NCBI RefSeq assembly: GCF_014699075.1 | Contig: NZ_JACXAB010000002.1 | Span: 124,001 to 188,000, forward strand | Length of the DNA: 64,000 bases | Reading direction: 5' to 3' | DNA from: Microvirga sp. | GTDB taxonomy: Bacteria > Pseudomonadota > Alphaproteobacteria > Rhizobiales > Beijerinckiaceae | Part shown: piece after piece, positions 13,227 to 63,086 of the stretch | How the letters are laid out: every line of letters begins with the position of its first letter | How positions within the stretch are numbered: position 1 is the stretch's first letter | Made by a program: the position numbers and the translations under genes | Notes under the pieces: model-generated | Told to the model about the DNA's origin: nothing | The model's database searches: none | The model's input: the letters and a program-made list of their open reading frames with translations, nothing else

Positions 13227-13240
13227 TTTTTGGGGTTTTG
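13227..13240 (-). promoter_or_regulatory. Leader element CAAAACCCCAAAAA before dnaQ
   Basis: One of about a dozen copies of AAA(A/T)CCCCAAAA found ahead of minus-strand genes. Here it ends about 20 bases upstream of the preferred ATG. Confidence 0.55.
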
Positions 13241-13265
13241 GCCACCCACGGGGGAGGTGGCTAAA

Positions 13266-13276
13266 ATCCGAATTAT
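13266..13276 (-). promoter_or_regulatory. Shared promoter-region element ATAATTCGGAT
   Basis: Matches the TAATTCGGAAT element seen before several other transcription units; here about 60 bases ahead of dnaQ. The ATAAT part could be a -10 box, but no good -35 was seen. Confidence 0.45.
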
Positions 13277-13338
13277 GTTTTTGTCCTTATGCAACCCTTT
13301 TGGGCCAGGAAAGGGCAAGGGCGTGTCGGCTTGGAGGG

Positions 13339-13701
13339 TTAGGAACCCTTCCGCTTATTTTCGCCGACCCGGATGATCTGTCCCTCCGGCGTAGTGTTGT
13401 ACCAGCCGGCCACGTGATAGACCTTCTCGCCACGGTTAAGCTTGCCTTTGAAGCAGGGGCGCCGGTGGGCGATGTCGTCAGGGGTCATCGAGAACGTGAA
13501 AATGGCACCATGGAGGACCTCGCCCGTCTCGCTCTTGCCGGAGACCGCCTGGAACGGGCGCTTATCCTTAGACATCTTCTGCTGGGTGGAGACCTGAAAG
13601 GTAACACCCTCCAGAACGATGCTCCCGAGGAGCGAAACAGAGCCGCGAGCCGATTCCTCGTTGAGCGTGCCGGAAATCGCAAAGGTACGTTGGGGGGCCA
13701 T
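13339..13701 (-). CDS. Small hypothetical protein, possibly OB-fold
   Basis: 120 residues beginning MAPQRTFAISGTLN. The pattern of short beta-strand-like segments and glycines (LLGSIVLEGVTFQV, LHGAIFTFSM, KVYHVAGWYN) would suit a small beta barrel, perhaps single-strand DNA binding, but no family was recognised. It stands between the cobT-like gene and dnaQ on the same strand, separated from dnaQ by a region containing its promoter element. Upstream lies AATTCGCGATTCGAGAAC, a member of the shared operator-like sequences in this window. Confidence 0.6.
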   Translation of the reverse strand: MAPQRTFAISGTLNEESARGSVSLLGSIVLEGVTFQVSTQQKMSKDKRPFQAVSGKSETGEVLHGAIFTFSMTPDDIAHRRPCFKGKLNRGEKVYHVAGWYNTTPEGQIIRVGENKRKGS

Positions 13702-13746
13702 TGGCGGTCCTCGTTTGCTTTAGCGGCCCGAGCGCATGTTGTTCTC

Positions 13747-13762
13747 GAATCGCGAATTAAAA
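13747..13762 (-). promoter_or_regulatory. Operator-like element TTTTAATTCGCGATTC
   Basis: Lies about 46 bases upstream of the 120-residue gene. It combines the TTTTAATTCG core with an ATTCGCGATTC half that resembles elements at 33830 and 57966. It contains a GANTC site, the CcrM target of alphaproteobacteria. Confidence 0.45.
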
Positions 13763-13806
13763 TGCAGCGTTGCGTATTATCCTTCGCTTGTAATCGAAAC
13801 GTGGCC

Positions 13807-15678
13807 TTAGAGAAACCGGCGCATAGCCTCCAGGAGCTGGTTGGGAAGGTCACTCACATGATTTATGGTTAGCCAGCCGGGGATCGGCAGGGTAGGAGCA
13901 TCCTTTCCGATGCCGATGCCGATCAGGTGGATCCCTGAGGCAATGGCTACCTGAGCGGCTTCCTCGGCGGCGATTGGGTCGTTGGCTTCCCCATCGGTAA
14001 CCAGGATCAGAACTTTCTTAGGGTGTCGCAGCCGGAACAGTTGGTGAGCGCCCTCCAGGATGGCTTCAGCGGTTGGCGTGCCGCCGCGCTGGCGTCTCAG
14101 TACCGAACCGACAGCCGGCCGCATCCGGGAGGGCGGCTCGCCGAATTGCTTGTGACGGACGATGGTGGGGTTGAGATCCTCATCGGTCGTGAAACTGTCA
14201 ATGGCGAGGTCAATCTGGCGCTGGTGGCCGACAGCCTCGATGACCGCTCCCGTTGCCTGAAGGAGAATGTCGAGCCGTGTGGCCCTCCGCTTGCTGGTTT
14301 CCCGGGCACCTTCTGGGTCAACATCCGAGGAAAGCATGGACCTCGAAACATCGAGCATGAATTGCACGGCGGCGTTGCTCCCGGTTCCACGCTGGATCCG
14401 ACGGAAGACATCAGGCTCGCCCATGGCTATACCCATGATGTTCTGATCGTCGAGCTCGCCCTCCAGCCGGTGGCGGCGGACGACCTTTCGCTGGCGGGAC
14501 AAGAGAAGCGACCTGACGGCGGCTGACAGGGTCGTTGCGTCCCTGCTGGCGGTTTCCATGACTGTCCGGAAAGCCTCGTCGTCGCCTGCCTCCGGAGTGC
14601 TTGGTGCGATCATCAAAGGGCGCGAGAAAGCTCTGCGATATTGGCTTGGGAGCCTTCCGGCAGCCTCTGCTTCGGCTACCGCCTGGCGGTAGGCTCGTAC
14701 ATCGACCCTAGTGCGATCAACGACCCGTGCCACAACGTCGGAGATATCGAGTAAGGGAGCGTCCAGGCGATCCGCGGCGGCATCGCTTTCGAGTTGCTCT
14801 TTGAGAGCCGGGGTGAAGTCGGATTTGAGAGATCCAGATGACGAGGGGCCGGGGCCTGAACTTGCCGAGGTGTTAGCACCTTCCCCGCGGCTCAGGCCTG
14901 GGTTGTCACCAGTAGGCACGGAGGGGGTTGCCTCCGGCGATGGATCACAGGCTCGGGCAGGTTCCTTGCTTCGGCGCTCGTGAGATAGCCGAATGAGCAG
15001 ATCGGAGAGGTGGAGCGCGATCGGATAGATATCAGGGTTGGTCCGGCAGCGGACGATCAAGGGCCAGTAGTGCTCTACGATATCAATGGCCTCTTGGTCC
15101 ACATGAGCCCTCATGTACTCGATGGCGACTTGAGCTGTCGGCGCGCAGGGGTAGCCATTAGCCACCGTGCCGAACCAGGTGAGCGCCTGGTGGACATTTG
15201 GGATCAGCCGCGGGGCTGTCGTCTGATCCCGTGCTTGGAGCTCCTTGAGTTCCCGGGCAACGATGTGATTGCGGGTGAATCCAATGTTCACATGGGAGCC
15301 GGGGAATGCTTTCCCGCCCAGTGACTCAATACGGTAGTCTTCCGCGCAATTCTCCGTCTTAATGAATAGCCTCAGCCGAAACTTCTGGGCTTTATCCATC
15401 TGGGAAACTGGCGCACCGATTGCCCTCTCGATCCACGGAAGGCGGGCCGCGAGAGTGCTGTAAAGGGGATGGAAGACCTCGTGGTTTCCGTACCCGCGTA
15501 GGATCTTAGCGTCGGCCTCGTTGTATTGGCTTTGGGGCCAAATGGCAGGTAGGACGATGTTGAGACCATCGGTGAATGCCTGGTCGCCCCTGAAGAGAAT
15601 GTGGAAACGTCGGTTGCCCATCGCCGAGAGAGTGGAGGTGATCTCCCGGCGCAGGATGTATCCCGGAATCATGCTCAT
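13807..15678 (-). CDS. CobT-like protein with von Willebrand factor A domain
   Basis: 623 residues from the ATG at 15676-15678, 11 bases after the cobS-like stop. The N-terminal part matches CobT-type proteins: a DAKILRGYGNHEVFH segment near residue 60 and ENCAEDYRIESLGG near 100. The middle is acidic and low complexity (PSVPTGDNPG, SASSGPGPSSS). The C-terminal vWA domain has a complete metal site: DVSRS near 445, GGTPTAEA near 540 and VTDGEAND near 570. Cobaltochelatase CobT works with CobS and CobN, but no cobN is nearby. With the AAA partner it more likely forms a MoxR/vWA-type remodelling machine. Note the HEVFH tetrad resembling a HExxH zinc site. Confidence 0.8.
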   Translation of the reverse strand: MSMIPGYILRREITSTLSAMGNRRFHILFRGDQAFTDGLNIVLPAIWPQSQYNEADAKILRGYGNHEVFHPLYSTLAARLPWIERAIGAPVSQMDKAQKFRLRLFIKTENCAEDYRIESLGGKAFPGSHVNIGFTRNHIVARELKELQARDQTTAPRLIPNVHQALTWFGTVANGYPCAPTAQVAIEYMRAHVDQEAIDIVEHYWPLIVRCRTNPDIYPIALHLSDLLIRLSHERRSKEPARACDPSPEATPSVPTGDNPGLSRGEGANTSASSGPGPSSSGSLKSDFTPALKEQLESDAAADRLDAPLLDISDVVARVVDRTRVDVRAYRQAVAEAEAAGRLPSQYRRAFSRPLMIAPSTPEAGDDEAFRTVMETASRDATTLSAAVRSLLLSRQRKVVRRHRLEGELDDQNIMGIAMGEPDVFRRIQRGTGSNAAVQFMLDVSRSMLSSDVDPEGARETSKRRATRLDILLQATGAVIEAVGHQRQIDLAIDSFTTDEDLNPTIVRHKQFGEPPSRMRPAVGSVLRRQRGGTPTAEAILEGAHQLFRLRHPKKVLILVTDGEANDPIAAEEAAQVAIASGIHLIGIGIGKDAPTLPIPGWLTINHVSDLPNQLLEAMRRFL

Positions 15679-15689
15679 GGTACTGTCGC

Positions 15690-17354
15690 TTAGAAGGGGG
15701 CCGGAGGGTTCCAATCCGGTCCATAGATCTGGTGGGCAAGCTCGGAGATCGTCTTAGCGTCGGCCATGGTTGGCGCGCGCCCATAGAGAATGCGCCGGAC
15801 TGCCTCACATTCATTGCGGTCGAAGGTGGCAAGCCGCGCCGTCGCTTCAAGTTGCCGGAAGCTGCAGGTCGTGCTGATTTCGCCCTTCTTGTAGGCGGCC
15901 CGAATGAGGTTGGCGACTTTGATGATCCTGTCGGCGCCGGTCTGGGTCTGGATGACACCCCTATCAAAGAGGATCTGGGCCTCGTCATCCGGACTCTGGT
16001 AGTCGAAATCGACCCAAACCTGAAAGCGGTCGCGGGTGGCTTCCGCCATCTCGTTGATCATCTGGTACCGATTGAGAGCATCGGCGCGGCCCTTCGTGTT
16101 GGCGGTGGCCATAAGCGCCACGTTCCGGTGTGGCGGAACAAACCGGCCCTCGTCCTCGAGGATGGTTATGCCCTCGCCCTCATAAACCTGGTGAGCAATG
16201 TATTGGAGATCGGGATCGGCCCGGTCGATCTCATCGAGGTCAATCACCGCCGGCTGACCGATGGCCTGGGTCAGCATGCCATCAAACCATCGGGTTTCCG
16301 ATCCTTGGTGAGTGCTGATCTGCTTGAAGCCGCCGAGCATGTCCCGTTTGCCCATCTCGCCGTGCATGGGAATGCGGTACCAGGGGCGTCGGAGCCTTGC
16401 AGCGATCTCCCTGGTGCACGTGGTCTTGCCGGAGCCAGGGGGACCAGTCAGGACGGAATTGTACCCATTCTCCATGGCCCAGAGGATGTGGCGCAGATCG
16501 TCAACGTTGAAACGATAAGTGGGGTCGACGACTGGGACTCGGGAATGACGGCCGGTCCACTCGAAGAGTGTGACAGGGAAGTCGAGCTTATCGGCATCGG
16601 TGGGGTGGCGCAGGGCATCTACGAAAAGATCGGCAGCCTTGACCTGGCGGGAGTGGCCCTCTGGATACTGACCCGTCGCCGAGACAGAATGGTTTGAGGC
16701 GACGAGGGCTGGCTTTGCGATAGCAGCGCGATCGGCCTCCAGAAGCTTGTCGAAGAGGCTGACGAGCGTCTTGAACTTGCCACTTGTGGCTCGGTCGATC
16801 AATCGGTCGCCAGTAGAGAGGAGGTCGCGGTCGACGTGCAGGCGCCCGAGAGGCTCATATGAGCTTTCCCCGCCCTGACCGGTGGTGGGATCAGGAGCGT
16901 GGGAAAGAGTTTCTTCAAACTCATCTTCCTGGGCTGGCAGGGGTTCAGAGACGTCCGGGGTGTGCTGTACGAATTGGGCCAGCGCTTCAGCCAGGACGTT
17001 GTCACTGACGGGCTTCATTTTCTCGCGCAGCTTCTCGATTTCGCCCTGGTGGGCTGGCTCGGTCAGCGCCTTGCAGAATTCGAGATGATTGTCCGAGGCT
17101 GGGTCGAAGCGAACCTGCTCCATGGCTTTGCGAACAACGGTCTGAGCGTCAGCCAAAGCGGCGGCGAGAAGCGTCTGTGCCTGTTGAGGGCCGAGTTTGT
17201 CTGCTAGAACGCCGCGGATATGGTCAGCGACCTCATCAGGCTCTCCAAAAAACGAACCGCTTCGCAATCTGGTCAGGCGGAAATAGGTCTTTTTGACGTA
17301 AAGACCGACAACGAGATTGTGGATTTGGGATTTTTGTTCGTCGATCTCAAACAT
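15690..17354 (-). CDS. CobS/MoxR-like AAA+ ATPase
   Basis: 554 residues, larger than classical CobS (about 330) because of an N-terminal extension of about 270 residues. Walker A is GPPGSGKTT near 304-312 and Walker B VIDLDEIDRAD near 370-380; MATANTKGRAD follows as sensor 1. The downstream cobT-like vWA gene is 11 bases away, the typical AAA/vWA operon. Such pairs insert metals or remodel target complexes; here, next to polymerase genes and without cobalamin genes, a role in DNA or protein remodelling is more likely (inference). The start codon directly follows AAACCCCA, so the leader element takes the ribosome-site position. Confidence 0.85.
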   Translation of the reverse strand: MFEIDEQKSQIHNLVVGLYVKKTYFRLTRLRSGSFFGEPDEVADHIRGVLADKLGPQQAQTLLAAALADAQTVVRKAMEQVRFDPASDNHLEFCKALTEPAHQGEIEKLREKMKPVSDNVLAEALAQFVQHTPDVSEPLPAQEDEFEETLSHAPDPTTGQGGESSYEPLGRLHVDRDLLSTGDRLIDRATSGKFKTLVSLFDKLLEADRAAIAKPALVASNHSVSATGQYPEGHSRQVKAADLFVDALRHPTDADKLDFPVTLFEWTGRHSRVPVVDPTYRFNVDDLRHILWAMENGYNSVLTGPPGSGKTTCTREIAARLRRPWYRIPMHGEMGKRDMLGGFKQISTHQGSETRWFDGMLTQAIGQPAVIDLDEIDRADPDLQYIAHQVYEGEGITILEDEGRFVPPHRNVALMATANTKGRADALNRYQMINEMAEATRDRFQVWVDFDYQSPDDEAQILFDRGVIQTQTGADRIIKVANLIRAAYKKGEISTTCSFRQLEATARLATFDRNECEAVRRILYGRAPTMADAKTISELAHQIYGPDWNPPAPF

Positions 17355-17362
17355 TGGGGTTT
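17355..17362 (-). promoter_or_regulatory. Leader element AAACCCCA touching the cobS-like start
   Basis: Copy of the shared CCCC leader element, here directly joined to the ATG with no room for a normal ribosome site between. Confidence 0.5.
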
Positions 17363-17404
17363 ACTTTTATGAGTAGCTTTCCCACTCCTGTTTTCGATGA
17401 AAGT

Positions 17405-17421
17405 CATTCCCGCGTAATTAC
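17405..17421 (-). promoter_or_regulatory. Weak copy of the TAATTCGGAAT element
   Basis: Minus-strand GTAATTACGCGGGAATG, about 50 bases before the cobS-like start; resembles the shared element with an insertion. Confidence 0.3.
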
Positions 17422-17538
17422 TAGGTGCGACACTGGAATTAGGTTGATGAGGAGCCTCGGAGGCAGGACCGGCGTGTATATTGCCGCCACCAATTTGGGT
17501 CACTATTCTGGATAGGTGGCGTTGAGGGAGGACGTTTC

Positions 17539-17604
17539 ATGATTCAGTATCAAGTCGTTCCCACTACTCATTCTCTTGGGAGAGAACCAATACTCACATG
17601 GTGA
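17539..17604 (+). CDS. 21-codon leader ORF overlapping the nuclease start
   Basis: ATG preceded by GAGGGAGGA at 5-6 bases, one of the strongest ribosome sites in the window. It encodes MIQYQVVPTTHSLGREPILTW and stops with TGG-TGA, overlapping the ATG of the nuclease gene at 17598. The arrangement suggests translational coupling or an attenuating leader peptide. The sequence is too short for protein-family evidence. Confidence 0.45.
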   Translation: MIQYQVVPTTHSLGREPILTW

Positions 17605-18542
17605 GAGGCAGCGGCACCAGCGACAGGGAGACGGCTTCCCTCGCAAAATTTGTAAGGGAGTTCCAACGGCTTTCGAAGCCCGAACTGGCCTTGGTCGAGC
17701 CTTCACAGTCAGAGGCGACTACTGCTGGCAGCAGCTTGGCCTCTTTTGCGACTTTCCTTGCGAGATTTAGAGAACTGTCGAGCCCAAACTCTACGAGCCT
17801 GAACAAGGCCGAGGATGCTCCGAGATATCGGCTAGAGACGTTCCTGGTGGAGTTCAGCCGGCTACGGCGCGACGTTCCTCCAGAGCCGCAGCGTCCGGCC
17901 GAGGTTATTCCGGACCAGGAGACACTGCGAAACTTTTTGGAGCACTTTAGGAGGCTTTCCGAAGCAAGCATCCGAAGCGGCGAGCAGATCGACATCTGGT
18001 CGATATCGGGCCTCGGGAAGAACGAAGTTCGGAACGCATCCGTGTTGGCTTGGCTCCTCGATAAGCGACAAACCCACGGGAAGGGAGCCGCGATCCTCCA
18101 AGCGCTATTAGATCGCCTTTCCAAACGGCATGTTGGTGAGTTTCCGCTGTCCGTTGACGATGCGAAGCAATATCGGGTGTCTACAGAACATTACTCGCTA
18201 GACAATGATGCGAACCGTGTCGACATCGTTATCGATGGTTCGGATTTCACAGCTTTTATCGAGGTCAAGATCGCTGCCCGTGAGGGCGAAGAACAGATCG
18301 ACCGGTATCTGGACCTGCTTGAGCGACGTGCAAAGGCCTTGGGCCGAGATCGTATCGGGCTAGTCTTTCTCACCAGATCTGGCGACAAGCCGAGAAACGT
18401 GGTCTCTCCTCGGGTTATCATTGCGACGTGGGATGATGTAGCACGCGCAATAGAGGAGACAATAAAGCGCCAGCAGAGCGGTGGGACCACTTTCGTGGAC
18501 CGCTTACTCACGCAATTCGCCCAGCATATTGCTCGATTCTAA
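17598..18542 (+). CDS. PD-(D/E)XK nuclease family protein (PDDEXK_4 type)
   Basis: 314 residues. The C-terminal half matches the PDDEXK_4 family: LGKNEVRNASVLAWLLD near 139-155, then a core with Asp209 (RVDIVID) and Glu222-Val-Lys224 (FIEVKI), then EEQIDRYLDLL. The core residues for a metal-dependent nuclease are therefore present. The N-terminal 125 residues hold about four degenerate repeats of a F-x-x-x-F-x-x-L-S helix (FVREFQRLS, FLARFRELS, FLVEFSRLR, FLEHFRRLS). It is followed 14 bases later by a gene of unknown function, and the two look like a compact operon. Orphan nuclease pairs on mobile elements are often defence or anti-competitor systems; that role is inference. Confidence 0.75.
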   Translation: MVRGSGTSDRETASLAKFVREFQRLSKPELALVEPSQSEATTAGSSLASFATFLARFRELSSPNSTSLNKAEDAPRYRLETFLVEFSRLRRDVPPEPQRPAEVIPDQETLRNFLEHFRRLSEASIRSGEQIDIWSISGLGKNEVRNASVLAWLLDKRQTHGKGAAILQALLDRLSKRHVGEFPLSVDDAKQYRVSTEHYSLDNDANRVDIVIDGSDFTAFIEVKIAAREGEEQIDRYLDLLERRAKALGRDRIGLVFLTRSGDKPRNVVSPRVIIATWDDVARAIEETIKRQQSGGTTFVDRLLTQFAQHIARF

Positions 18543-18556
18543 ACGGGAAAAGCACG

Positions 18557-19201
18557 ATGTCTTCAAATCAAATGGACGCTCTGATTGTTCGCCATCTCTC
18601 GGACATTGATGCTGCTGCGCGAAGGCTGAGCTACGAACTCGAAGCCAAAGTAGGCAAAGCCATCGATGTGCTTATTGAGGAATGGGCTGAGAAGAGCGGT
18701 TGGGAAGGTAGCTTTAGCTGGGATCAGGTTGATCTGTATTTCTACCCAAAGGAATGGGAATACACTGAAGAGGGGAGCGATGAGCCATCCCAGTACGGCT
18801 ACTTTTATCTCTACTCAGGTCCAGGGGACAACTTCGATGATAATGCGCAGGTCGATTATTTCTGGCTAACGAGGCTCTGCGGCGCCGGCAGGGGCGAACT
18901 CGCCTTCTGGTGGGAGTACGAAAAGGGCACGGTCGCCCCGAAGGGTAAGAAGTGGAAGCAGTTCGTCAATCCTTATATCGAGAGGCTGAAAGCTGCGGGT
19001 TTCAATTATCACGAGGACGACGGCATATTCTATCGCCCGGTCCGGGTTGACGCTGAGAGTCTAGCGAAGGCAGTCGAAAATGAGTCGATCGAAGATGCTC
19101 TCAAACCTATTGAGGCAGCATTGGAAGCTTGCCTCGCGGCACAGCCGATCTTTGATGAGATCCTGACTGCAGCAAAATCCCATTTCAAAGCTGCGGCTTA
19201 G
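18557..19201 (+). CDS. Hypothetical partner of the PDDEXK_4 nuclease
   Basis: 214 residues, acidic and rich in aromatic residues (DLYFYPKEWEY, YGYFYLYSG, DYFWLTRLCG). No family recognised. Helical ends flank a central beta-rich, Trp/Tyr-rich segment. It starts 14 bases after the nuclease gene and is likely co-expressed. It could be an inhibitor, a specificity subunit or a sensor for the nuclease. It converges on the helicase gene at 19207 with a 5-base gap and no visible terminator. Confidence 0.65.
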   Translation: MSSNQMDALIVRHLSDIDAAARRLSYELEAKVGKAIDVLIEEWAEKSGWEGSFSWDQVDLYFYPKEWEYTEEGSDEPSQYGYFYLYSGPGDNFDDNAQVDYFWLTRLCGAGRGELAFWWEYEKGTVAPKGKKWKQFVNPYIERLKAAGFNYHEDDGIFYRPVRVDAESLAKAVENESIEDALKPIEAALEACLAAQPIFDEILTAAKSHFKAAA

Positions 19202-19206
19202 TGGCG

Positions 19207-20892: not shown

Positions 20893-20918
20893 AAGAAGAA
20901 TAAAGCGTAAAAATGTGT

Positions 20919-20935
20919 TTCTAATTCGGGGAATG
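20919..20935 (+). promoter_or_regulatory. Shared promoter-region element CTAATTCGGGGAATG
   Basis: Lies between the divergent helicase (20892) and the 20968 gene. In plus orientation it matches TAATTCGGAAT with two extra G and sits 33 bases before the plus-strand start. It is the only clear plus-strand copy noticed. Confidence 0.4.
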
Positions 20936-20967
20936 TGTTAAAAGCACCCGTCTACAAGGAGTGGTCA

Positions 20968-22215: not shown

Positions 22216-22238
22216 CTGTCATACTACCTGGCTATCGA

Positions 22239-24836: not shown

Positions 24837-24848
24837 TTTTGGGGTTTT
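24837..24848 (-). promoter_or_regulatory. Leader-type element AAAACCCCAAAA upstream of the outer membrane protein
   Basis: Exact copy of the shared element, but 120 bases ahead of the 24717 start, further than at most other genes. Confidence 0.45.
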
Positions 24849-31587: not shown

Positions 31588-31600
31588 TTTGGGGGTTTTG
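31588..31600 (-). promoter_or_regulatory. Leader element CAAAACCCCCAAA before the giant fusion gene
   Basis: Shared leader element with five C, 41 bases from the gene start; the spacer contains a GGCTTCGGCC/AGCCTTCGGCT hairpin-like stretch. Confidence 0.45.
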
Positions 31601-32661: not shown

Positions 32662-32673
32662 TTTTGGGGATTT
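32662..32673 (-). promoter_or_regulatory. Leader element AAATCCCCAAAA before the paralogue operon
   Basis: Exact match to the copy at 35782; followed at once by AGGAAAG and the ATG 14 bases beyond the element. Confidence 0.6.
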
Positions 32674-35781: not shown

Positions 35782-35793
35782 TTTTGGGGATTT
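35782..35793 (-). promoter_or_regulatory. Leader element AAATCCCCAAAA before the DUF7007-like gene
   Basis: Followed immediately by TTAGGAGCC, so element and ribosome site adjoin as at 32662. Confidence 0.6.
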
Positions 35794-35834
35794 ACCTGTA
35801 TGGCTCTCTCCGTTGGTTGATTGAACATTGGCAA

Positions 35835-38979: not shown

Positions 38980-38997
38980 GCCTGGTCCTCTGAATTC

Positions 38998-39006
38998 TGG
39001 GGTTTT
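38998..39006 (-). promoter_or_regulatory. Leader element AAAACCCCA before the 38979 operon
   Basis: The element is followed by GAATTC and AGAGGACC, with the ATG 18 bases beyond the element. Confidence 0.5.
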
Positions 39007-41478: not shown

Positions 41479-41518
41479 TGAGAATCCTCAACGGGTTAAG
41501 GCAGCAGCCAATGAATTG

Positions 41519-41528
41519 TGGGGTTTTT
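41519..41528 (-). promoter_or_regulatory. Leader element AAAAACCCCA before the methyltransferase
   Basis: Copy of the shared leader element 40 bases from the ATG of the 41478 gene. Confidence 0.5.
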
Positions 41529-42233: not shown

Positions 42234-42245
42234 TTTTTGGGGTTT
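42234..42245 (-). promoter_or_regulatory. Leader element AAACCCCAAAAA upstream of the glycosylase
   Basis: Same core as the other copies, but about 70 bases from the start. Confidence 0.5.
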
Positions 42246-42280
42246 GCCCTCTACTAGGGCCTCGGTTTGCCATGGTCGTC

Positions 42281-47012: not shown

Positions 47013-47026
47013 TTTTTTGGGCTTTT
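47013..47026 (-). promoter_or_regulatory. Variant leader element AAAAGCCCAAAAAA
   Basis: G replaces the first C of the CCCC core; position relative to the ATG is the same as at 32662 and 35782. Confidence 0.4.
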
Positions 47027-47469: not shown

Positions 47470-47472
47470 CCG

Positions 47473-51711: not shown

Positions 51712-51908
51712 GTAACTATCTTTCTTAATGGGGATTCTACCGTCCCTCTTCCACTTCAAGTTCTCGAAAAATAACCGGCTTGTTCCTGACCCACAAAGTG
51801 GTCCTATCAATAAAGTTCGTGATGGCCGAAGGTGTCAAGCCATCCTGAAACTCAAATGTCCTCAGTGTGGGTGCACCGAGGGCAAGTGGCTGTCGAAAGA
51901 GGTCTCGG

Positions 51909-53889: not shown

Positions 53890-53940
53890 ATAAGGATCTA
53901 GCGTTTTATTTCTTATGCAAGCATTGTAATTCGCCGCAGG

Positions 53941-54498
53941 CTACCGGATCTTCATGGTGGTGGTACAATCGCGGACGGGGCGGCCATTCCGCAGCGCCCG
54001 GATGGTCACAGCACCCTGCTTCTCGTCATAGGCGACAAAGGTCGCGTTGGTGCGCGGGTCAGGAGCGTCGGGAACATCCTGATAGGCGTAGAGGAAGCAA
54101 GCTTTCGAGCGGGTGGTCTTCGTCCCCTGAGGGCCGGTCACCGTGACACGGACAGGGCAGATGCTATGAAGATCGGTGCTGGAGAAGGAGTTCGCGCCGC
54201 CATCGCAGTCCCGGGCGACGCTGATCAGGCTGACCGTGATCTGTTCGGCTCCCTCGGTGAAGGTATGGGACAGGAACTGTGCCGGAGCATTCCCCTTCAT
54301 GAACCGCTCCTCCTTAAGGGTCTCGCGGAAATAGCGGTTGTTGCTGTCGATCACATCGGCCCAGATTTGTGCCATCTGGGGCGTCGCCGCGGACGGCTGC
54401 AGGAGATCGCTGAAGGTCATGGCCTTCCAATCCTGTGCCGCAGCAGCGCCCGTGAGAGCCAGTGTGACTGCAGCGAAACCCAGAAACCTCTTTAACAT
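53941..54498 (-). CDS. Secreted hypothetical protein upstream of the TrbL-like gene
   Basis: 185 residues. Signal peptide ends GAAAAQ. No family; a Cys pair (SICPVRVT, SKACFLYAYQ) suggests a disulfide. The TrbL-like gene follows after a 150-base gap holding the long hairpin. AATTCCCCGAGTAGGACG precedes the start, a weak leader copy. Confidence 0.6.
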   Translation of the reverse strand: MLKRFLGFAAVTLALTGAAAAQDWKAMTFSDLLQPSAATPQMAQIWADVIDSNNRYFRETLKEERFMKGNAPAQFLSHTFTEGAEQITVSLISVARDCDGGANSFSSTDLHSICPVRVTVTGPQGTKTTRSKACFLYAYQDVPDAPDPRTNATFVAYDEKQGAVTIRALRNGRPVRDCTTTMKIR

Positions 54499-54573
54499 CG
54501 TGTCGTCCTACTCGGGGAATTTATTGGTCATATCCTCAACACCTGCTTCGGAAAGGAAGCAAGTGTCAGTCTT

Positions 54574-56727: not shown

Positions 56728-56741
56728 GACAGGGGTTCCTT

Positions 56742-57032
56742 TTATCCTCCGGCGGGCGCGAGGGCCCTCTCGGGACTTCTTATGGTGGCCTTGGGAGCCA
56801 CCGGCTCCTGGCGTTGTTCGGCGGCTATGAGCGCAATCAGCCGGCCCGTCCTGACCGCCTGGTCAGGACGCTTGCCAGCGATGTCGATAAATCGGTAGAC
56901 CCGGCCGCCCACGTTCACCGCACCTTCTGGCGTGAGAGCGCCAATGATGACGGTGTCTGCCGATCCTGTTGCGGTGGGCGGATGCACCGTCTTTGCGTCG
57001 AAATCGACGAAGACGATAATTCCGTCCGCCAC
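56742..57032 (-). CDS. Small hypothetical protein
   Basis: 96 residues from a GTG start at 57030-57032; a GTG at 57060-57062 would add ten residues but would place the leader element inside the coding part. Core VFVDFDAKTVHPP and VIIGALTPEGAVNVGGRVYRF. Probably co-transcribed with uvrD. Unknown family. Confidence 0.5.
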   Translation of the reverse strand: MADGIIVFVDFDAKTVHPPTATGSADTVIIGALTPEGAVNVGGRVYRFIDIAGKRPDQAVRTGRLIALIAAEQRQEPVAPKATIRSPERALAPAGG

Positions 57033-57038
57033 CAGGAC

Positions 57039-57049
57039 TTTTGGGGTTT
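57039..57049 (-). promoter_or_regulatory. Leader element AAACCCCAAAA
   Basis: Lies 6 bases upstream of the preferred GTG start of the 57032 gene; like the dnaQ copy, it would fall inside the coding part if an upstream GTG were used. Confidence 0.45.
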
Positions 57050-57065
57050 GGGTTCCCGACACTTT

Positions 57066-57542
57066 TTAGAACTCGATTGATCCGTCACGCCACAGAGCAG
57101 CCAGCTGGGGGGCGATCACCGCCTTTGCGCTGCCGTTCCCTTTGAACTCGAACCCGGCCACTTCCTCGCCGTCGAACTTCAGACGAACCGTCAGCTTGTT
57201 CTCGCGATCGAGGATATCGGCACTGCGCCGGGCCAGATCTTTGCCGCCGGCATCGTATTCCTTAAGAACGTGTGCCCCCATGAGACCGCCTTCGGAGGGT
57301 TCAGCAATCGAAATGCGCTTGAGGGTGAACTGATCGCCGAGCTGCTGCTCAAGGCTGGAGATGATATCGCTGGGCTTGCGCTGGCCGTCGACGGCGTACT
57401 GCTCGACAACGACTTTAGTAACGATGACGCGGGCGCCGGAGTCATCGGGTTTGGGTTGGGCGACCATTTTGAGAAAACCTTCACGGGGCTTGTTGGAGGG
57501 GAGGGGAACTCGATCCGTCGAGGAGACGAGGCGAAGGGTCAT
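57066..57542 (-). CDS. Hypothetical protein in the SSB operon
   Basis: 158 residues. The ATG overlaps the SSB-like stop (ATGA), so they are translationally coupled. Segments ARVIVTKVVVEQYAVDGQRKPSDI and LDRENKLTVRLKFDGEEVAGFEFKGNG look like a beta-sheet protein. Unknown family. A function next to single-strand binding is likely. Confidence 0.6.
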   Translation of the reverse strand: MTLRLVSSTDRVPLPSNKPREGFLKMVAQPKPDDSGARVIVTKVVVEQYAVDGQRKPSDIISSLEQQLGDQFTLKRISIAEPSEGGLMGAHVLKEYDAGGKDLARRSADILDRENKLTVRLKFDGEEVAGFEFKGNGSAKAVIAPQLAALWRDGSIEF

Positions 57543-57952
57543 GCTGCAAGCCCACGCGAGACCGGCGAGGACGCATTAGGCTCGGCAGCGGGATTGAGGG
57601 TAACGGGAAGGAAGCGGCTGAAGTGATTGCCGCGCTTAATGGAGATGTAGGGAAGTTCTGGGCCTCCCTCGACCTCAGAGCGATACTGGAGTCGGCCGCT
57701 CAAGGTGATCCAGTCGCCATCCTTAAGAACGCCTTGGATGTCGTCGGTGATGACTTCCTTGGAGTAGACGACGATGCGGTGGTTTTCTTCTTTCTCCACC
57801 GTGGAGGATTTCGCCGTGCCCTTGCCACGAGTGAAAGAGGCTCGGGTCGTCAGGGTAAACTCTGCGATCATGCCTCCTGAATCCTGGAAGGATTTGATGC
57901 TGATGTCGCCTTTAACGACTCCGCAGAGTGAGATCTGATTAAGCCAGGACAC
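57539..57952 (-). CDS. Single-stranded DNA-binding protein-like (OB fold)
   Basis: 137 residues from the GTG at 57950-57952, preceded by ACGGAG at 8 bases; an upstream TTG adds nine residues and is less likely. The pattern GVVKGDISIK, then EFTLTTR, then NHRIVVYSKEV and LKDGDWITLSGRLQYR fits SSB/PriB OB folds. Length is close to SSB core plus a short tail, but the acidic DDDIPF tail is missing. It should coat single-stranded DNA for the polymerase and Rad52-like protein. Preceded by the GATTTGCGAATC element. Confidence 0.75.
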   Translation of the reverse strand: MSWLNQISLCGVVKGDISIKSFQDSGGMIAEFTLTTRASFTRGKGTAKSSTVEKEENHRIVVYSKEVITDDIQGVLKDGDWITLSGRLQYRSEVEGGPELPYISIKRGNHFSRFLPVTLNPAAEPNASSPVSRGLAA

Positions 57953-57965
57953 GGCTTTCTCCGTT

Positions 57966-57977
57966 GATTCGCAAATC
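57966..57977 (-). promoter_or_regulatory. Near-palindrome GATTTGCGAATC before the SSB-like gene
   Basis: Identical to 25398-25409; 13 bases from the GTG start, partly in the ribosome-site position; contains a GANTC site. Confidence 0.45.
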
Positions 57978-58089
57978 AAGAAACTCGGTTACTCTTAAGC
58001 CGTGTATATCCCGCTTTCTGCCGAAGTGTAATGCGGAAAAGCTTTTAACTATTTCGAGCAACAGGATTGATGGTTAAATGTGGCCCGGA

Positions 58090-58518
58090 TCACACGTCTT
58101 TGGCGAAGCTGCGCCGGGATTTGGAGCACATCTCGACCCAGCGTGCCTCATCCGACTTGTCGAACGAGACCCGGCGGACGTTGAAATCGATGGTGACGGA
58201 ACGGTTGGATACAGTCGCTACGAGAGCAATCCGCTGATCCTCAATCTTTTCCGGATCGCCATTCCAGTCGCGATCGGCGAACTTGTGAGAGAAACCTACT
58301 GACCGGGATTCAGGATTGCTGCGCAGTTCCGAGGAGGCGGCTGCGGCGAAAGCCTCGACCAGAGCAAGAGCCCGCATGGTGGCACCATCAAATCCGGTGA
58401 AGTCCGGGTCGGTGCCGATTGCCTGCTGGTAGACCCGACGGGTGACATGAACTGTGCGGCCGTCCCATTCACCAACGGTGAGGAAAGCCTTCTGACGGGG
58501 CTGAACGTCCTGCATCAT
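58090..58518 (-). CDS. Hypothetical protein
   Basis: 142 residues with TAGGAGAC before the ATG. Core WDGRTVHVTRRVYQQ, ALVEAFAAAASSEL, VTIDFNVRRVSFD. Unknown family. Stands alone between a terminator and the SSB-like gene. Confidence 0.6.
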   Translation of the reverse strand: MMQDVQPRQKAFLTVGEWDGRTVHVTRRVYQQAIGTDPDFTGFDGATMRALALVEAFAAAASSELRSNPESRSVGFSHKFADRDWNGDPEKIEDQRIALVATVSNRSVTIDFNVRRVSFDKSDEARWVEMCSKSRRSFAKDV

Positions 58519-58536
58519 GTTCTGTCTCCTAGGAAT

Positions 58537-58564
58537 GAAAAAGCCCTGGCTTTTGGCCAGGGCT
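58537..58564 (-). terminator. Rho-independent terminator
   Basis: Stem AGCCCTGGC with GCCAGGGCT and T-run on the minus strand; 28 bases after the 58593 stop. Confidence 0.85.
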
Positions 58565-58592
58565 GCTGATCGCTGGATTGTCTTAAGAGCGG

Positions 58593-61500
58593 TTACATCC
58601 CAATCCCATTCTGTTGGGACCTGGCAACACGGAACTTATCGTTTGCTGCCAGCTGAGAGAGCTTCGTTTCCATCTCGCGCCGATCCTTATCAGCAACGAC
58701 AACGGAGATCTCTTCAGGGGATTTAGCACTCTTTTGCTCATACTCGGTCGGGTGCCTAGCAACTCCATACTTGATCGCAATCTGAGCGGCCGTCAGGCCG
58801 TTCAGGTCATCACGGGTGAGCGACTTGGCTTTTCCGGACTCCACGTTCTCGATGAACGCTCCCATTTCGCCGCTCTTCATGATCACCGTCGCCGGCCGCG
58901 TGAAGGATGCCACGCGGACCATGGGGCTGGACTGGGGATCCATGCCGCCATCGGCGTTGTAGCCATTGCTTTCGAACACGCCATCCGCGCCCTGGAAGCC
59001 GACGCCAACCGGGCTGATGGTGTTACCGCCGCGTCCCGTCTGGGCAGAGATGGTTCCCATTTCACGGGTGAGGCGCACGTTCGCCGTGAAGTTCAGGAAC
59101 TCCTCCGGGTTCGGGGACAGGGTAGCGACAGGGCGGGTCTGGCCAGCCTCGACGGCGATCAGGGCAGACACGTCCTTTTCGCCGGCAGCGGCAAGCACCA
59201 CGCTCTTCGACGTCTCGGTGGCCATCTGCAGGACCTTGGTCCGGTTGGCAGGCCCCTCGTTCTTGCCGAAGCCCTGGGCCGAGATCATCGATCCGCTGCC
59301 GTTCTCGATGGCGACGAACAGAGCATCCACGGCCTTGTCCGAGATGCCGGTTGCATCCTTATCGGGGGAGAAGGCCACGAACTTGGCACCGTGCTTGGCG
59401 GCAGCCTCAATCACGGCCTCGCCGATACCCTTCTCGGCGGTTGTGTGAATGACGGCTCCCTTTTCGGCAGCTTCCTTGACGACCTGCTCAATGGCGCCCT
59501 TGGTCCTCTCACCGATCTCGTTGTTGTGGCCGATGATGGCGACAGCATTGCCGACCGACGGCTCGCCGAAGACCACGACAGGAAGCCCACGGGCCTTGGC
59601 GAAGTCGGAGGTGAGATCATAGCGCATGTCGTTCTGCTTGGCGGCCTCGACCTTGATCGATGCATCCATGAGCAGGGCTTCCAGAGCAGCAGGATTGCGA
59701 AGCTTCTCGACACCCGGGCGAAGGGCTGCCGCAACCGGGCGCAGCGAGGCCATTTCTTCCTTGGTCAGAGACACAACCTTGTTGCCTGACCGGGAGGCGA
59801 ACTCGACAACCTCGCCGAGGGTCTTGAACTGGCTTTGAACGACGGAGAGCTTCTGGATACCCGTGATCTGGGCTAGAGCGAGGCTGTTGACCGTGGCGAT
59901 GGTCTTCTGCTCGTTGCTCAGGCCAGGAGTGGCCGGGTCGATCAGACCCGCAGAGCAGCTCTGGATCTCGCGGCGAGCGCGCTCCTGAGGGGTCGGGGCA
60001 CCCATAACAGCGACCTTATAGGCCTCATCCAGGTTGACCGAAGCACCATTGTTGTCCCGGACCTCGACCTGCTTGCCGCCTTCAACACCGCGCCGGACAT
60101 GCTGGCAGGTGTTGAAGTCGTTCTGCTCAAGACCAAAGACTGCGATGCGGTTCGAAATGGATTGAGCCACCTGCCAACCGATCATACGGGCCTGGTTGTC
60201 AGACTTGCCATCCGGATGCAGGACGATGAGCTTGCCGCGGGCGGCGCGCTGGCCCTCGCGGGAATAGAGATCGAAGGCCTCCTCCGGGTTGGACGGGTTC
60301 GGAACTGTGATCTGCATCTTGCGGTCATTGAAGCTCTTGGCACCGTTCTCGCCCACGATCTTCATGCGGGTGGTCTTGGCCGACACAGTGGCGTTGATCA
60401 CGGCAAAGCCGTTCTTCTCAGCCGCGTCCGTGAGAGCCTTATAGGACTTAGACTTGTCGTCGACGGTCACGACAAGGCTGGTGCGGGTATGAGGAGGCAG
60501 AGCCTTGTTGGAAACCGCGATCTGGGCCACGTAGTCGTTGACTGCGCCGGCATTCTTGTAGAACCGGGATCCCTCGACGGCGACAGTGGGGAACTTCAGG
60601 CCGCTGGTCTCAGCCCCGAAGAGGGCAGGACGAATGGTCATCTTCACCGGGACGATCTTGCCGTCGTCGGCCTTCTTGTAGGATGCTATTTCAACCGGGC
60701 GGGAGAAGTCTTCACGGATCTGCTTCGCCGCATTGGCAATGGCCGTACGGGACGGAACATTGGGACCAGCGGAAGCAGCGAAGGAAACCCAGGCCTCGGC
60801 AATCAGGGCCTGAGGGCGGGAAGCCATCACAAAGTCCGTCCGGTCCATCTGCTGCGAGGCATGACGGCTCATGGCAGTGGTGATCGAGGCCTTGTCGTGA
60901 CCGCTCGCCTGCAGGTCGGCCAGCGCCTGCTTCTGGCTCTGGAACAGGTCCGAGGCCAGAACCTCGTTAGCAAGGGCGCTCAGGTCGGGCCCAAAAGCGG
61001 GCTTCGATCCGCGGTCCGAGCCGGCGGCCAGCTTCTCGTAGCTTTCCTTCTGCCGCTCCATATCGGTGCGGACGATCCAGTCAGGGCGATCCTTGGTACC
61101 GTCTACAATACCCATAGCGGCATTATCGATGAAGGCCGTGAAGATACGGCGGTCCTTCTCGTCCGAGATCGCGTCGGTGATACGGGAGACAAGGCGCAGG
61201 CGGTTATAGACGGCACGCTCGAAAGTCTCATTGCCAGCGAACGGGTCAGCAGCCTGCTGGGCAGGGGCCTTCCCCTCCGGAGCGAACGAGGAGCGCAGGA
61301 TCTGCCGGGTCATCTGCTCACGACGGTCGGCGGACACGTCGACAATGTTGCCGAGCTCGTCCTCGTCGTCCTTGAAGGGGACTGTCGTGTCGGCGTAGAT
61401 GTCAGCCACAGCCTTCGTCAGCGTCCGGTAGGCCTGGGTGTTCCGCAGGCGGACAACGGTTGCATCGCTGTCGTCGGTGATGGTGTGACCCTGGGCTGAG

Positions 61501-61949
61501 CCGATGGCCTCATTGACGAGGCGGCTGAGAACCTGGCTGGTCTGCGCCACAGTCAGGGACTTTGGCATGAGGTCGGTCAGCTGGCGCTTGGCCAGAGTGA
61601 CATTCATCGTGCCGTCGATCTGGCGCTCGGTCAGATCCACGTCGCTGGCGCCGAGGGCCTGATTGGCGCGGTCCTGAACCTGGCGGCGCCCCTGCTCGGC
61701 CGAGAGGACACCCCGGGTGGCGACGGCTGCGATCGCACGGAGCTCATTCCAGTAGGCGGCGCGGGCGAGGTCATTGTCCTGAGTCAGGGACTGCTCGATA
61801 TGGAAGGCGAAGGACGCGGCCTTGTCGCGCTCGCTACCGAACTGGGGACGATTGGGGTCCTGAATGGGGTGACGGTCACCGATGGTGATGACGGTAATGT
61901 CTCGCCGGAACGGGGCATCGGAGTGGTTCAGGAAGGACTTGGCGCTCAT
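58593..61949 (-). CDS. Large protein with DprA/SLOG-like Rossmann domain
   Basis: 1118 residues with AGGAG 11 bases before the ATG. About residues 785-950 resemble the DprA/Smf fold: VAIIGHNNEIGERTKGAIEQ, then GIGEAVIEAAAKHGAKFVAF, ENGSGSMISAQGFG (compare the S-G-S-x-I/T-A motif of DprA), and SKSVVLAAAG. DprA loads RecA on single-stranded DNA; SLOG-type relatives bind nucleotide ligands. About 480-620 contains another alpha/beta segment (SLVVTVDDKSKSYKALTDAAEKNGFAVI). The first 450 residues are helical with no recognised domain. Together with SSB, Rad52-like and primase genes nearby, a recombination role is plausible. A shared element lies upstream at 62006. Confidence 0.6.
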   Translation of the reverse strand: MSAKSFLNHSDAPFRRDITVITIGDRHPIQDPNRPQFGSERDKAASFAFHIEQSLTQDNDLARAAYWNELRAIAAVATRGVLSAEQGRRQVQDRANQALGASDVDLTERQIDGTMNVTLAKRQLTDLMPKSLTVAQTSQVLSRLVNEAIGSAQGHTITDDSDATVVRLRNTQAYRTLTKAVADIYADTTVPFKDDEDELGNIVDVSADRREQMTRQILRSSFAPEGKAPAQQAADPFAGNETFERAVYNRLRLVSRITDAISDEKDRRIFTAFIDNAAMGIVDGTKDRPDWIVRTDMERQKESYEKLAAGSDRGSKPAFGPDLSALANEVLASDLFQSQKQALADLQASGHDKASITTAMSRHASQQMDRTDFVMASRPQALIAEAWVSFAASAGPNVPSRTAIANAAKQIREDFSRPVEIASYKKADDGKIVPVKMTIRPALFGAETSGLKFPTVAVEGSRFYKNAGAVNDYVAQIAVSNKALPPHTRTSLVVTVDDKSKSYKALTDAAEKNGFAVINATVSAKTTRMKIVGENGAKSFNDRKMQITVPNPSNPEEAFDLYSREGQRAARGKLIVLHPDGKSDNQARMIGWQVAQSISNRIAVFGLEQNDFNTCQHVRRGVEGGKQVEVRDNNGASVNLDEAYKVAVMGAPTPQERARREIQSCSAGLIDPATPGLSNEQKTIATVNSLALAQITGIQKLSVVQSQFKTLGEVVEFASRSGNKVVSLTKEEMASLRPVAAALRPGVEKLRNPAALEALLMDASIKVEAAKQNDMRYDLTSDFAKARGLPVVVFGEPSVGNAVAIIGHNNEIGERTKGAIEQVVKEAAEKGAVIHTTAEKGIGEAVIEAAAKHGAKFVAFSPDKDATGISDKAVDALFVAIENGSGSMISAQGFGKNEGPANRTKVLQMATETSKSVVLAAAGEKDVSALIAVEAGQTRPVATLSPNPEEFLNFTANVRLTREMGTISAQTGRGGNTISPVGVGFQGADGVFESNGYNADGGMDPQSSPMVRVASFTRPATVIMKSGEMGAFIENVESGKAKSLTRDDLNGLTAAQIAIKYGVARHPTEYEQKSAKSPEEISVVVADKDRREMETKLSQLAANDKFRVARSQQNGIGM

Positions 61950-62005
61950 CGGGAGTTTGCTCCTGGCACGATGAAAAGAACGAAGGGTGGATGGGGTATC
62001 CCGGC

Positions 62006-62019
62006 AAATCGAATTATAA
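62006..62019 (-). promoter_or_regulatory. Shared promoter-region element TTATAATTCGATTT
   Basis: Includes a perfect TATAAT -10 box followed by TCGATTT; about 57 bases upstream of the 61949 gene. Confidence 0.5.
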
Positions 62020-62062
62020 CTCAGTTTTGCCGCTTTTCATATCGGTTTCGTCATTCAAGCTG

Positions 62063-63058
62063 TTATCTAAGGCAGAAAAGCAGGTATTTTTTGCGCGCGA
62101 TGTCTTCCAGATCGGGCAGTTTCCAGCCTTCCGCGGCAAAGTCGTCGAGGTCGTAGCCTGCTCCGATGTCCTCAGATCTGAACCCTCCACGGTTCGGCAG
62201 AGCGGATCGGGGCATTCGAAGAAGGGTGATGGACCTGGCCTCACTTCTGAGAAACTGGGACGCGTACGTCAGGCCGGCAGCGTCCATGTCCTGGGCGATA
62301 TAGAGGTCTCGCCCGGCGAGTGGCCCCAAGTCTGCCATGTGGACCTTTCGAGAGCCGCCGAGCGTCGTGGTCATCCACGGGATCCGGCCCCCGAAAAGCT
62401 CTGACGGCCCGATAATGAACCGCTTTGCGGCCTCCGTTGTCTTCTCGCCTTCGAGAACCAGGATCGGGCCCTCGCCATCATCAAGGTGAAGATCATAGAG
62501 GGGGTGCGGGTCCGGCGGGGCGGCCTTGAGCCATTTGACCTTGCCGTTCACCATCCAGGGCGTGAAGGGAAAGATGTCTTTGCCGCCCTCAGGATTTGGG
62601 AAGCGGGCGGTGTAGAAACATTCCCGCCCGTGGCGATCGTGCCATGCCCAGACGCCATGAGCCCCTTGGAGGCGATATTCGGGCGGCTTTCCCTGCTGGG
62701 AAGTCCCAACGTACACCGCGCCCTCAGGCAGACCATTCTTCTTCCGGCGCTCCGTTGGGGCGACCCTTTGGCGGGGCTGGGACCCATCGCAGCGGAACTC
62801 TCGCTTCTGGGTTCTACCCAGCTGGCGTGGCTCGACCCCGTACTTATCCCTGAGCCTGTCCAGGATGAGTGACTGAGGGCAGGAGGCCCGACAATACAGC
62901 AGGATCCTGTCATCCTTCTGGGTCACGACCAGGGACGGCTTCCGGTCGTCATGGGCGGGGCACAGGGTTTCGTATTCATTGTCGTTGTAGCGACGTTCCT
63001 TCCTGTCCCCGATCATTCGGGCAAGGTCACCGGCAGAGAGCTTTGGTTTGTCAGACAT
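62063..63058 (-). CDS. DNA primase-like protein (CHC2 zinc finger plus TOPRIM)
   Basis: 331 residues from the ATG at 63056-63058; a TTG 9 bases upstream is less likely. The zinc finger ETLCPAHDDRKPS ... ILLYCRASC lies near 30-60. The TOPRIM domain follows: ILVLEGEKTTEAAKR near 200 and DLYIAQDMDAAGL near 250. End DDFAAEGW fits plasmid and phage primases of the TraC/Toprim_3 type. No helicase domain is fused. It would make primers for element replication or transfer strand synthesis. Leader AAAACCCCAAAA precedes the start. Confidence 0.85.
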   Translation of the reverse strand: MSDKPKLSAGDLARMIGDRKERRYNDNEYETLCPAHDDRKPSLVVTQKDDRILLYCRASCPQSLILDRLRDKYGVEPRQLGRTQKREFRCDGSQPRQRVAPTERRKKNGLPEGAVYVGTSQQGKPPEYRLQGAHGVWAWHDRHGRECFYTARFPNPEGGKDIFPFTPWMVNGKVKWLKAAPPDPHPLYDLHLDDGEGPILVLEGEKTTEAAKRFIIGPSELFGGRIPWMTTTLGGSRKVHMADLGPLAGRDLYIAQDMDAAGLTYASQFLRSEARSITLLRMPRSALPNRGGFRSEDIGAGYDLDDFAAEGWKLPDLEDIARKKYLLFCLR

Positions 63059-63074
63059 GGTACTCAACGAGCTC

Positions 63075-63086
63075 TTTTGGGGTTTT
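63075..63086 (-). promoter_or_regulatory. Leader element AAAACCCCAAAA before the primase
   Basis: Exact copy, 16 bases before the ATG at 63056-63058. Confidence 0.6.

Follow-up and report, generated by a model that had tools for sequence, protein, structure and literature searches.

Plasmids are usually thought to depend on ordinary host promoters, and T4 RegA, CsrA and Crc/Hfq are translational regulators that act at many ribosome-binding sites. In the yeast linear cytoplasmic elements pGKL1/2, each gene has a short upstream conserved sequence (UCS) near its start codon, transcription is the element's own, and leaders are short, as set out in part of the source (PMC6831550). Portions of two reports on the jumbo phages AR9 and phiKZ describe an element-specific promoter class repeated over a large genome (PMC5312081, PMC4666361). 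In Alphaproteobacteria, a T at −7 is often missing from sigma70 promoters, which may require CarD, according to one part of a further report (PMC8407463). Here we analyse a stretch of 64,000 nucleotides (nt) of Microvirga sp. (contig NZ_JACXAB010000002.1, positions 124,001 to 188,000), referred to as the window, in which a preliminary description had noticed a shared element ahead of about a dozen minus-strand genes. This motif is a real and strong signal, oriented, element-specific and located at gene starts. From its sequence context, we give about an even chance to the reading that Microvirga megaplasmids possess an element-specific promoter class and that the motif is its start-proximal core. 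A literature search turned up no description of the motif, nor of such a signal on a plasmid.

Motif copies in the window

Three patterns were used, the strict motif, (A/C)AA(A/T)CCCC(A/G)(A/G)AA, in which (A/T) is referred to as W and (A/G) as R, a looser pattern, NAAWCCCCNNAA, and the exact core, AAAWCCCCRAAA. Searching the window for AAAWCCCCAAAA with up to one mismatch returned 11 sites, every one of them on the minus strand, against a mean of 0.40 and a maximum of 3 in 100 shuffles. The motif or a variant was present at all 14 places listed in the preliminary description, displaced by 0–3 nt. Its statement that plus-strand copies are lacking is true of the window and extends, for the strict pattern, to the whole contig (44:0). 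It was also right that the element touches the start codon of cobS: TAAACCCCA, placed at 17355, directly abuts the ATG. The sites are as follows, with distances given to the start codon.

13228 to 13239, minus strand: AAAACCCCAAAA, before an RNase_T-type exonuclease gene (exonuclease domain match) adjoining dnaE; 21 nt to ATG.
17353 to 17364, minus strand: variant GTAAACCCCAAT, core abutting the ATG of the cobS/MoxR-like AAA gene; lacks a ribosome-binding site; kept in VF16 and M. sesbaniae.
24837 to 24848, minus strand: AAAACCCCAAAA, 119 nt before an outer-membrane beta-barrel gene.
31588 to 31599, minus strand: AAAACCCCCAAA, 40–52 nt before a gene for a 2033-aa methylase-helicase; strong terminator-like hairpin, with the T-run starting 43 nt upstream.
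32662 to 32673, minus strand: AAATCCCCAAAA, 14 nt before a 92-aa gene.
35782 to 35793, minus strand: AAATCCCCAAAA, 12 nt before a DUF7007 gene; terminator-like T-run 48 nt upstream.
35794 to 35829, minus strand: one instance of the 36-bp upstream stretch, whose conservation accompanies that of the motif in many ortholog families.
38995 to 39006, minus strand: AAAACCCCAGAA, 15 nt before a 176-aa gene; terminator-like T-run 25 nt upstream.
41516 to 41527, minus strand: AAAACCCCACAA, 37 nt before a cytosine methyltransferase gene.
42235 to 42246, minus strand: CAAACCCCAAAA, 72 nt before the ATG of a uracil-DNA glycosylase gene.
47015 to 47026, minus strand: variant AAAAGCCCAAAA, gap of 11 nt; three relatives have AAAAACCCAAAA.
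51727 to 51738, minus strand: weak variant AGAATCCCCATT, gap of 15 nt; three relatives keep AATCCCC.
54511 to 54522, minus strand: weak variant AAATTCCCCGAG, gap of 12 nt; three relatives keep AATTCCCC.
57039 to 57050, minus strand: CAAACCCCAAAA, right where a small gene begins, 6 nt to GTG; within an annotated VF16 reading frame.
63075 to 63086, minus strand: AAAACCCCAAAA, 16 nt to ATG; terminator-like T-run 45 nt upstream.

The gap to the start codon is thus 6–21 nt at nine of the 14 sites and 0 nt at cobS, the others being 37 nt (41516), 40–52 nt (31588), 72 nt (42235) and 119 nt (24837). At these four distant sites the part following CCCC is A-rich and not fixed (AAAA in two, CAAA and ACAA in the others). 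The variants first placed at 47013, 51729 and 54513 read AAAAGCCCAAAA, AGAATCCCC and AAATTCCCC, respectively. An additional loose match at 58713, within the gene for an 1118-aa protein and close to its 3' end, looks like a coding coincidence. This protein (58593 to 61949, minus strand) displays a weak, sub-threshold SLOG-like match and had relatives only in Microvirga among the searches made. A search of the window against Rfam gave no match.

The motif is oriented and confined to one type of element

The contig containing the window, designated C24, comprises 471,485 bases. Copies of AAAWCCCCAAAA with up to one mismatch were found 40 times on its minus strand and never on its plus strand, most of them a few bases 5' of a called gene and one inside a called gene. 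The looser pattern occurred 61 times on the majority strand and twice on the other. All 21 exact copies of AAAWCCCCRAAA in the 6.6-Mb genome were on C24, on a single strand, and the one-mismatch copies on other contigs, among the matches listed, were scattered over both strands. Among 298 sampled genomes of the family, a strong excess of AAAWCCCCRAAA was detected only in the window's own genome (0 and 21 copies), the other 297 containing at most nine copies each. In IMG/VR viral contigs, AAATCCCCRAAAGGA was found in at least 120 stretches, with one match in each of the 80 listed, and no relative of the 1118-aa marker was confirmed in viral contigs.

The nearest named relative of C24 is plasmid pMVF16-3 of Microvirga sp. 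VF16 (NZ_CP069357.1, 730,915 bp, circular), with tblastn identities of 85.5% for the 2033-aa protein and 87.7% for the 1118-aa protein. This plasmid carries MobA/MobL and VirB-type transfer genes, although MOB-suite labels it non-mobilizable. With up to one mismatch, it harbors 63 forward and 4 reverse copies, and 3 of the 63 are within positions 100001–480999. Two peptide patterns from the 1118-aa marker, compared with genome contigs, confirmed four loci, each in Microvirga; the strand ratios of AAAWCCCCRAAA in the records of these four genomes, in which contig orientations are arbitrary, were 19:2, 14:1, 21:4 and 24:0.

Five elements were compared over the stretches read; in these, the majority strand contained 44, 46, 33, 30 and 28 copies of the strict motif, 181 in all, and the other strand none. 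The looser pattern gave 239 copies versus 3. A Markov-chain model, run three times, predicted 0.7–1.7 strict copies per element when both strands were counted. Neither this expectation nor the shuffles support a chance origin. The reversed strict pattern was present only 4, 3, 2, 1 and 2 times on the majority strand. Within C24, W is T in 18 of 21 strict sites of a small-gene array (225–275 kb) and in 9 of 23 elsewhere (p 0.002), a difference that may reflect two sub-classes or common ancestry within the array.

Two other features of these elements were observed. The region of C24 at about 340–420 kb has a G+C content of 0.64–0.68, versus mostly 0.56–0.63 for the rest, is devoid of AAAWCCCCAAAA-type sites and holds the only Sigma70_r2 match of the contig. 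On pMVF16-3, pPIWI_RE-type domains (RNaseH_pPIWI_RE, MID and X; L036:46328-49744 and L039:1-9921, with a sub-threshold match to domain Z in a neighbouring gene) suggest a defence locus.

The motif is linked to genes that start their own transcript

Placement was analysed in 349,916 bp of pMVF16-3 containing 371 annotated genes, scoring the strict motif within 150 nt upstream. It preceded 36 of 290 majority-strand genes and none of 81 minority-strand genes (Fisher p 1.6e-4). The gap to the start codon was 9–16 nt in 27 of the 36 cases and 6, 19, 20, 26, 46, 60, 104, 115 and 122 nt in the others. The hexamer AATCCC was found before 45 of the 290 majority-strand genes (5.6 expected); the best hexamer of the minority strand reached p 3e-4. 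The preliminary description had proposed to give up the signal if copies were equally frequent on both strands and inside genes, or if they were missing from orthologous leaders. The strands are unequal, 43 of the 46 strict VF16 sites are outside annotated genes in a sequence that is about 80% coding, and the leaders in relatives retain the motif, as detailed below.

The five shortest distances between the looser pattern and the preceding co-directional stop codon were 33, 35, 37, 37 and 37 nt. This pattern was present in none of 44 co-directional gaps of 24–53 nt and in 28 of 140 larger gaps (p 4e-4). It was also present at 15 of 50 genes preceded by a gene on the opposite strand, which must therefore start their own transcript. 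Similar figures were obtained with the strict pattern (0/44 versus 22/140, p 0.0025; 13/50 after an opposite-strand gene) and with one mismatch allowed (1/44 versus 34/140, p 7e-4; 16/50). Terminator-like hairpins were detected within 110 nt upstream of 20 of 119 loose sites in C24 and VF16, and at three loci their T-runs begin 43–48 nt before the motif in both elements alike.

A predicted ribosome-binding site of −4 kcal/mol or lower was found for 89% of the 35 motif genes with a near-start site, compared to 70% of 254 other majority-strand genes. The former figure fell to 51% if only the gap following the motif, excluding RRAA, was considered, indicating that RRAA contributes to the ribosome-binding site. 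One gene with the motif upstream, at a gap of 14 nt, encodes a 387-aa protein with a ribosome modulation factor (RMF) domain (L039:15212-16375).

Conservation extends 36 bp upstream from the motif

Sixty reciprocal pairs were obtained from 87 C24 sites and 82 VF16 sites with up to one mismatch, a few of the pairs being coding rather than leaders, and conservation began at about −36. The 44 strict C24 sites led to 26 ortholog families with at least three members among the five elements, which revealed a step at the same position. Identity was 0.41–0.57 at −70 to −45, 0.52–0.62 at −44 to −37, 0.63–0.73 at −36 to −31, and 0.80–0.84 at −15 to −12. The motif columns reached 0.92–1.0, except for positions 8 and 9 (0.72 and 0.83).

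BLAST searches made without motif selection for nine window sites returned 25 orthologous leaders. By eye, AAWCCC was kept in 22 of them, and the other three, belonging to the 54513 family, keep AATTCCCC, as does the window site. At cobS, the core abuts the ATG and a ribosome-binding site is lacking in three species, one of them with an A-to-T exchange at W.

A proposed element-specific promoter core

In the mechanism that we favour, the motif would be recognised as DNA. RNA polymerase, redirected by a putative element-borne factor, would start transcription in or beside AAAWCCCCRAAA, giving transcripts with very short leaders in which RAAA and a following GGA would serve as the ribosome-binding site. 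The same unit would include about 36 bp upstream, with a TTTC-like block near −33 and a purine- or adenine-rich block near −16 to −12, so that the motif and this stretch may form a start region of about 50 bp. The outcome would be an element-wide regulon for replication, repair, methylation and many small uncharacterised genes. Since no exact copy was found outside C24 and no strong excess in the 297 other family genomes, the factor should be encoded by the element. A promoter class of the yeast UCS type predicts an oriented, conserved motif that is confined to the element and placed close to gene starts. Such a motif was found, although, in contrast to the yeast elements, only part of the genes carry it.

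Several observations weigh against this reading. Sigma70-like boxes (−35 and −10 hexamers 15–19 bp apart) were not in excess upstream of motif genes, although the E. coli matrix used gave no signal over shuffles at other gene classes either, which leaves this comparison uninformative. The motif-rich parts of C24 and pMVF16-3 contained no Sigma70_r2 domain, and a search for a T7-type polymerase (PF00940) returned no match, the control genomes being likewise empty. A distance of 9–16 nt from the start codon would be compatible with a translational signal as well. A one-mismatch site, CAAACCCCAGGA (VF16 634235), sits in a short gap, 17 nt past a stop codon, and is conserved in C24, and a second one is located 23 nt past the upstream stop. 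Avoidance of short gaps is therefore a strong but not an absolute rule, and these exceptions slightly lower the probability of the promoter reading. Terminator-like hairpins precede 7 of 28 motif genes versus 18 of 112 other long-gap genes (p 0.28). Conservation of the motif columns is in part a matter of construction, since only orthologs having a site with no more than one mismatch were admitted, whereas no such selection applied to the upstream step. Finally, cross-gene information upstream from the motif is weak.

Control at the RNA level and other explanations

The main rival, possible but less probable than a promoter core, is that AAAWCCCC acts in the 5' untranslated RNA, where it would be bound by an element-encoded protein or would aid the ribosome, resulting in translational or mRNA-stability control. 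The gap of 9–16 nt in 27 of the 36 VF16 genes, the contribution of RRAA and the following bases to the ribosome-binding site (91% of the 35 genes with RRAA, 51% without it) and the two sites located 17 and 23 nt past an upstream stop are consistent with such a role. So is the upstream TTTC block, which is complementary to GAAA and over-represented, being present in 19 of 46 near-start leaders versus 5.5 in shuffled ones; the longest stems formed with the motif side averaged 5.13, versus 4.58 for shuffled blocks (standard deviation, sd, 0.15). Majority-strand leaders of a different sequence, which look hairpin-like around the ribosome-binding site, are also present in two distant plasmids whose replication block is similar. 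A purely translational signal nevertheless fits less well, because the motif hardly ever occupies short co-directional gaps, occurs at 15 of 50 genes following an opposite-strand gene, is located 37–119 nt from the start codon at other sites, and precedes cobS, which lacks a ribosome-binding site.

Pairing tests gave little support to a structured leader. In eight Microvirga sets, duplex pairing was not above permutation in seven (p 0.14, 0.17, 0.97, 0.51, 0.82, 0.83 and 0.19), the remaining set giving p 0.03. Variants at RR did not covary with the upstream block (p 0.52, 0.65, 0.60 and 0.14). The 36-nt segment that begins at −24 and ends with the motif folded with a mean of −5.0, versus −4.82 (sd 0.11) for permuted leaders. 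In longer windows, 2.47 pairs were expected for near-start leaders versus 2.01 (sd 0.26) after permutation, and 2.08 versus 1.90 (sd 0.17) for all leaders. A few individual leaders fold well, such as that at C24:226482. A conserved, covarying stem including the ribosome-binding site, as in Shine-Dalgarno-sequestering hairpins, was not found in the Microvirga elements. These tests do not reveal RNA structure as a general property of the leaders.

Three specific RNA-based models were considered and were rejected or not supported. For a short upstream hairpin with CCCC, pairing of CCCC was 26% versus 28% after permutation, with p 0.01, 0.049 and 0.58 in three tests of matching at W. For a long TTTC...GAAA hairpin, the block is non-random and complementarity exceeds shuffles, but site-specific pairing and covariation do not. 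A fully complementary trans-acting RNA is unlikely, as the opposite strand of C24 and the rest of the genome contain no exact copy of AAAWCCCCRAAA.

Binding of a plasmid-encoded repressor or activator to the motif as a DNA operator, outside the promoter core itself, is unlikely. The motif is placed over the presumed start region, and MucR-like, GntR-like, WYL, CarD and GcrA-like regulators are annotated on pMVF16-3. Operators are usually independent of orientation, whereas the motif is fixed at 181:0 and is not palindromic, so that a freely oriented repressor site fits poorly. Of the ideas raised in the preliminary description, an element-wide signal ahead of unrelated genes is upheld by the orientation and by the 36/290 versus 0/81 distribution over VF16 genes, a freely oriented repressor site finds little support, and a signal acting in translation alone loses ground.

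Use of a host sigma70 or sigma32 (RpoH) promoter, with CCCC in the −10 region, is very improbable. The RpoH −10 element is CCCCAT, which the CCCC of the motif recalls; at single sites TTGAAA precedes CCCC by about 16 nt (63075), and a plasmid-type CarD relative is present in all five genomes. However, transcription from an RpoH promoter would start after the ribosome-binding site, AAAW varies about as little as CCCC, W aside, and a CTTGAA-type −35 consensus about 13–17 nt before CCCC is lacking apart from single sites. For sigma70, a TA step (T at −12, A at −11) was not found at a fixed place before AAAW, and the absence of exact motif copies outside C24 also argues against host sigma factors.

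Spread of the copies along with duplicated genes is hardly credible, since, despite similar leaders at some array genes, grouping of the 239 loose sites at 55% identity yields about 91 leader clusters (a rough clustering in which some loci are merged), little sequence is common around the motif, and the genes differ in function, which bears out the doubt about common descent expressed earlier.

GANTC methylation sites were rejected as an explanation (6 seen, 7.3 expected). Separately, in 91 leaders, the 40 nt preceding the motif contained GATC 51 times (32.8 expected).

Candidate factors

Matches to PF04542 were obtained only in motif-poor parts of C24 and pMVF16-3 (C24:356122; VF16 209759 and 449002). 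All five elements encode sigma region 1.1 as a separate small protein (81 aa), always on the strand opposite the motif genes; the copies are 79–88% identical to that of VF16. It is 47–52% identical to the N-terminus of a host frame of 672–707 aa, presumed to be RpoD.

C24:251217-251459, plus strand, and L034:380-625, minus strand: sigma region 1.1 copy, 81 aa.

Relatives of CarD were detected in all five genomes, on C24 (68%), on pMVF16-3, on C43, a motif-rich contig of G299, and, for the two remaining genomes, on contigs that each contain a single exact motif copy. Additional CarD copies are present elsewhere in these genomes. A GcrA-like protein and an RMF-domain protein are also encoded by pMVF16-3. 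All these proteins are linked to the motif solely by co-occurrence with the element.

Distant relatives in Sphingomonadales

Sphingosinicella plasmid p1 (L048) has a similar dnaE-exonuclease-VWA-MoxR-helicase block, and an Erythrobacter plasmid (L049) has part of it. The motif was not in excess in these plasmids, with 1 and 4 copies of AAWCCCCRAA. Other words were enriched, based on rough gene calls and with ribosome-site-like words besides: GGATGAAA in 19 of 307 upstream regions of one plasmid (0.66 expected), and CCCTCAAT and GAATGAAA each in 11 of 395 in the other (about 0.65 expected). These signals were nearly all on the majority strand (25:2, 22:2 and 22:1), the Sphingosinicella copies being partly paralogs (32 matches, 26 clusters). 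Many of the leaders are hairpin-like, with the ribosome-binding site as the 3' arm, although a selected set was only mildly above control (66.9% paired versus 65.4% shuffled; covariation 0.185 versus 0.157). The majority-strand small genes of L048 and L049 have GGGGAATGAAA right before the ATG and CAATTCG/CGAATTG-like inner hairpins. These leaders are possibly a counterpart of the Microvirga signal, and provide a lead rather than a result.

A broader proposal, which we regard as doubtful, is that megaplasmids with transfer genes drive their backbone genes from a promoter class of their own, small element-borne factors reprogramming the host RNA polymerase, and that the Sphingomonadales relatives do likewise with different signals. 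The stand-alone sigma region 1.1 copy and the CarD relative would be the candidate factors.

Comparison with known systems

One oriented start signal, repeated in dozens of copies along the megaplasmid backbone and found in five elements, points to a virus-like, element-wide control of expression, which would here occur in a plasmid with transfer genes. The motif offers a direct handle for the search of the factor. The jumbo phages AR9 and phiKZ encode multisubunit RNA polymerases, and no RNA polymerase was annotated in the part of pMVF16-3 read; their promoter motifs presumably differ from the Microvirga motif.

The motif resembles the UCS of pGKL1/2 in being a short conserved upstream sequence close to the start codon. 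The UCS (ATNTGA) is, however, located 13–25 nt upstream of the start site, and the yeast element encodes a polymerase, according to the part of the source that describes them (PMC6831550). The Microvirga motif touches the presumed start region, is unrelated in sequence, and belongs to a plasmid on which no polymerase was found. As for CarD-dependent promoters, the host polymerase and CarD are available, and a plasmid CarD relative exists; unlike CarD-dependent sigma70 promoters, the motif genes display no sigma70-like −10 element at a fixed distance, and exact copies are absent from the rest of the genome. Finally, as with the targets of RegA, CsrA and Crc/Hfq, many genes share a common signal at the ribosome-binding site. 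The Microvirga signal differs from these targets in being a strictly oriented and conserved element, accompanied by 36 bp of conserved upstream sequence and nearly absent from operon-type gaps.

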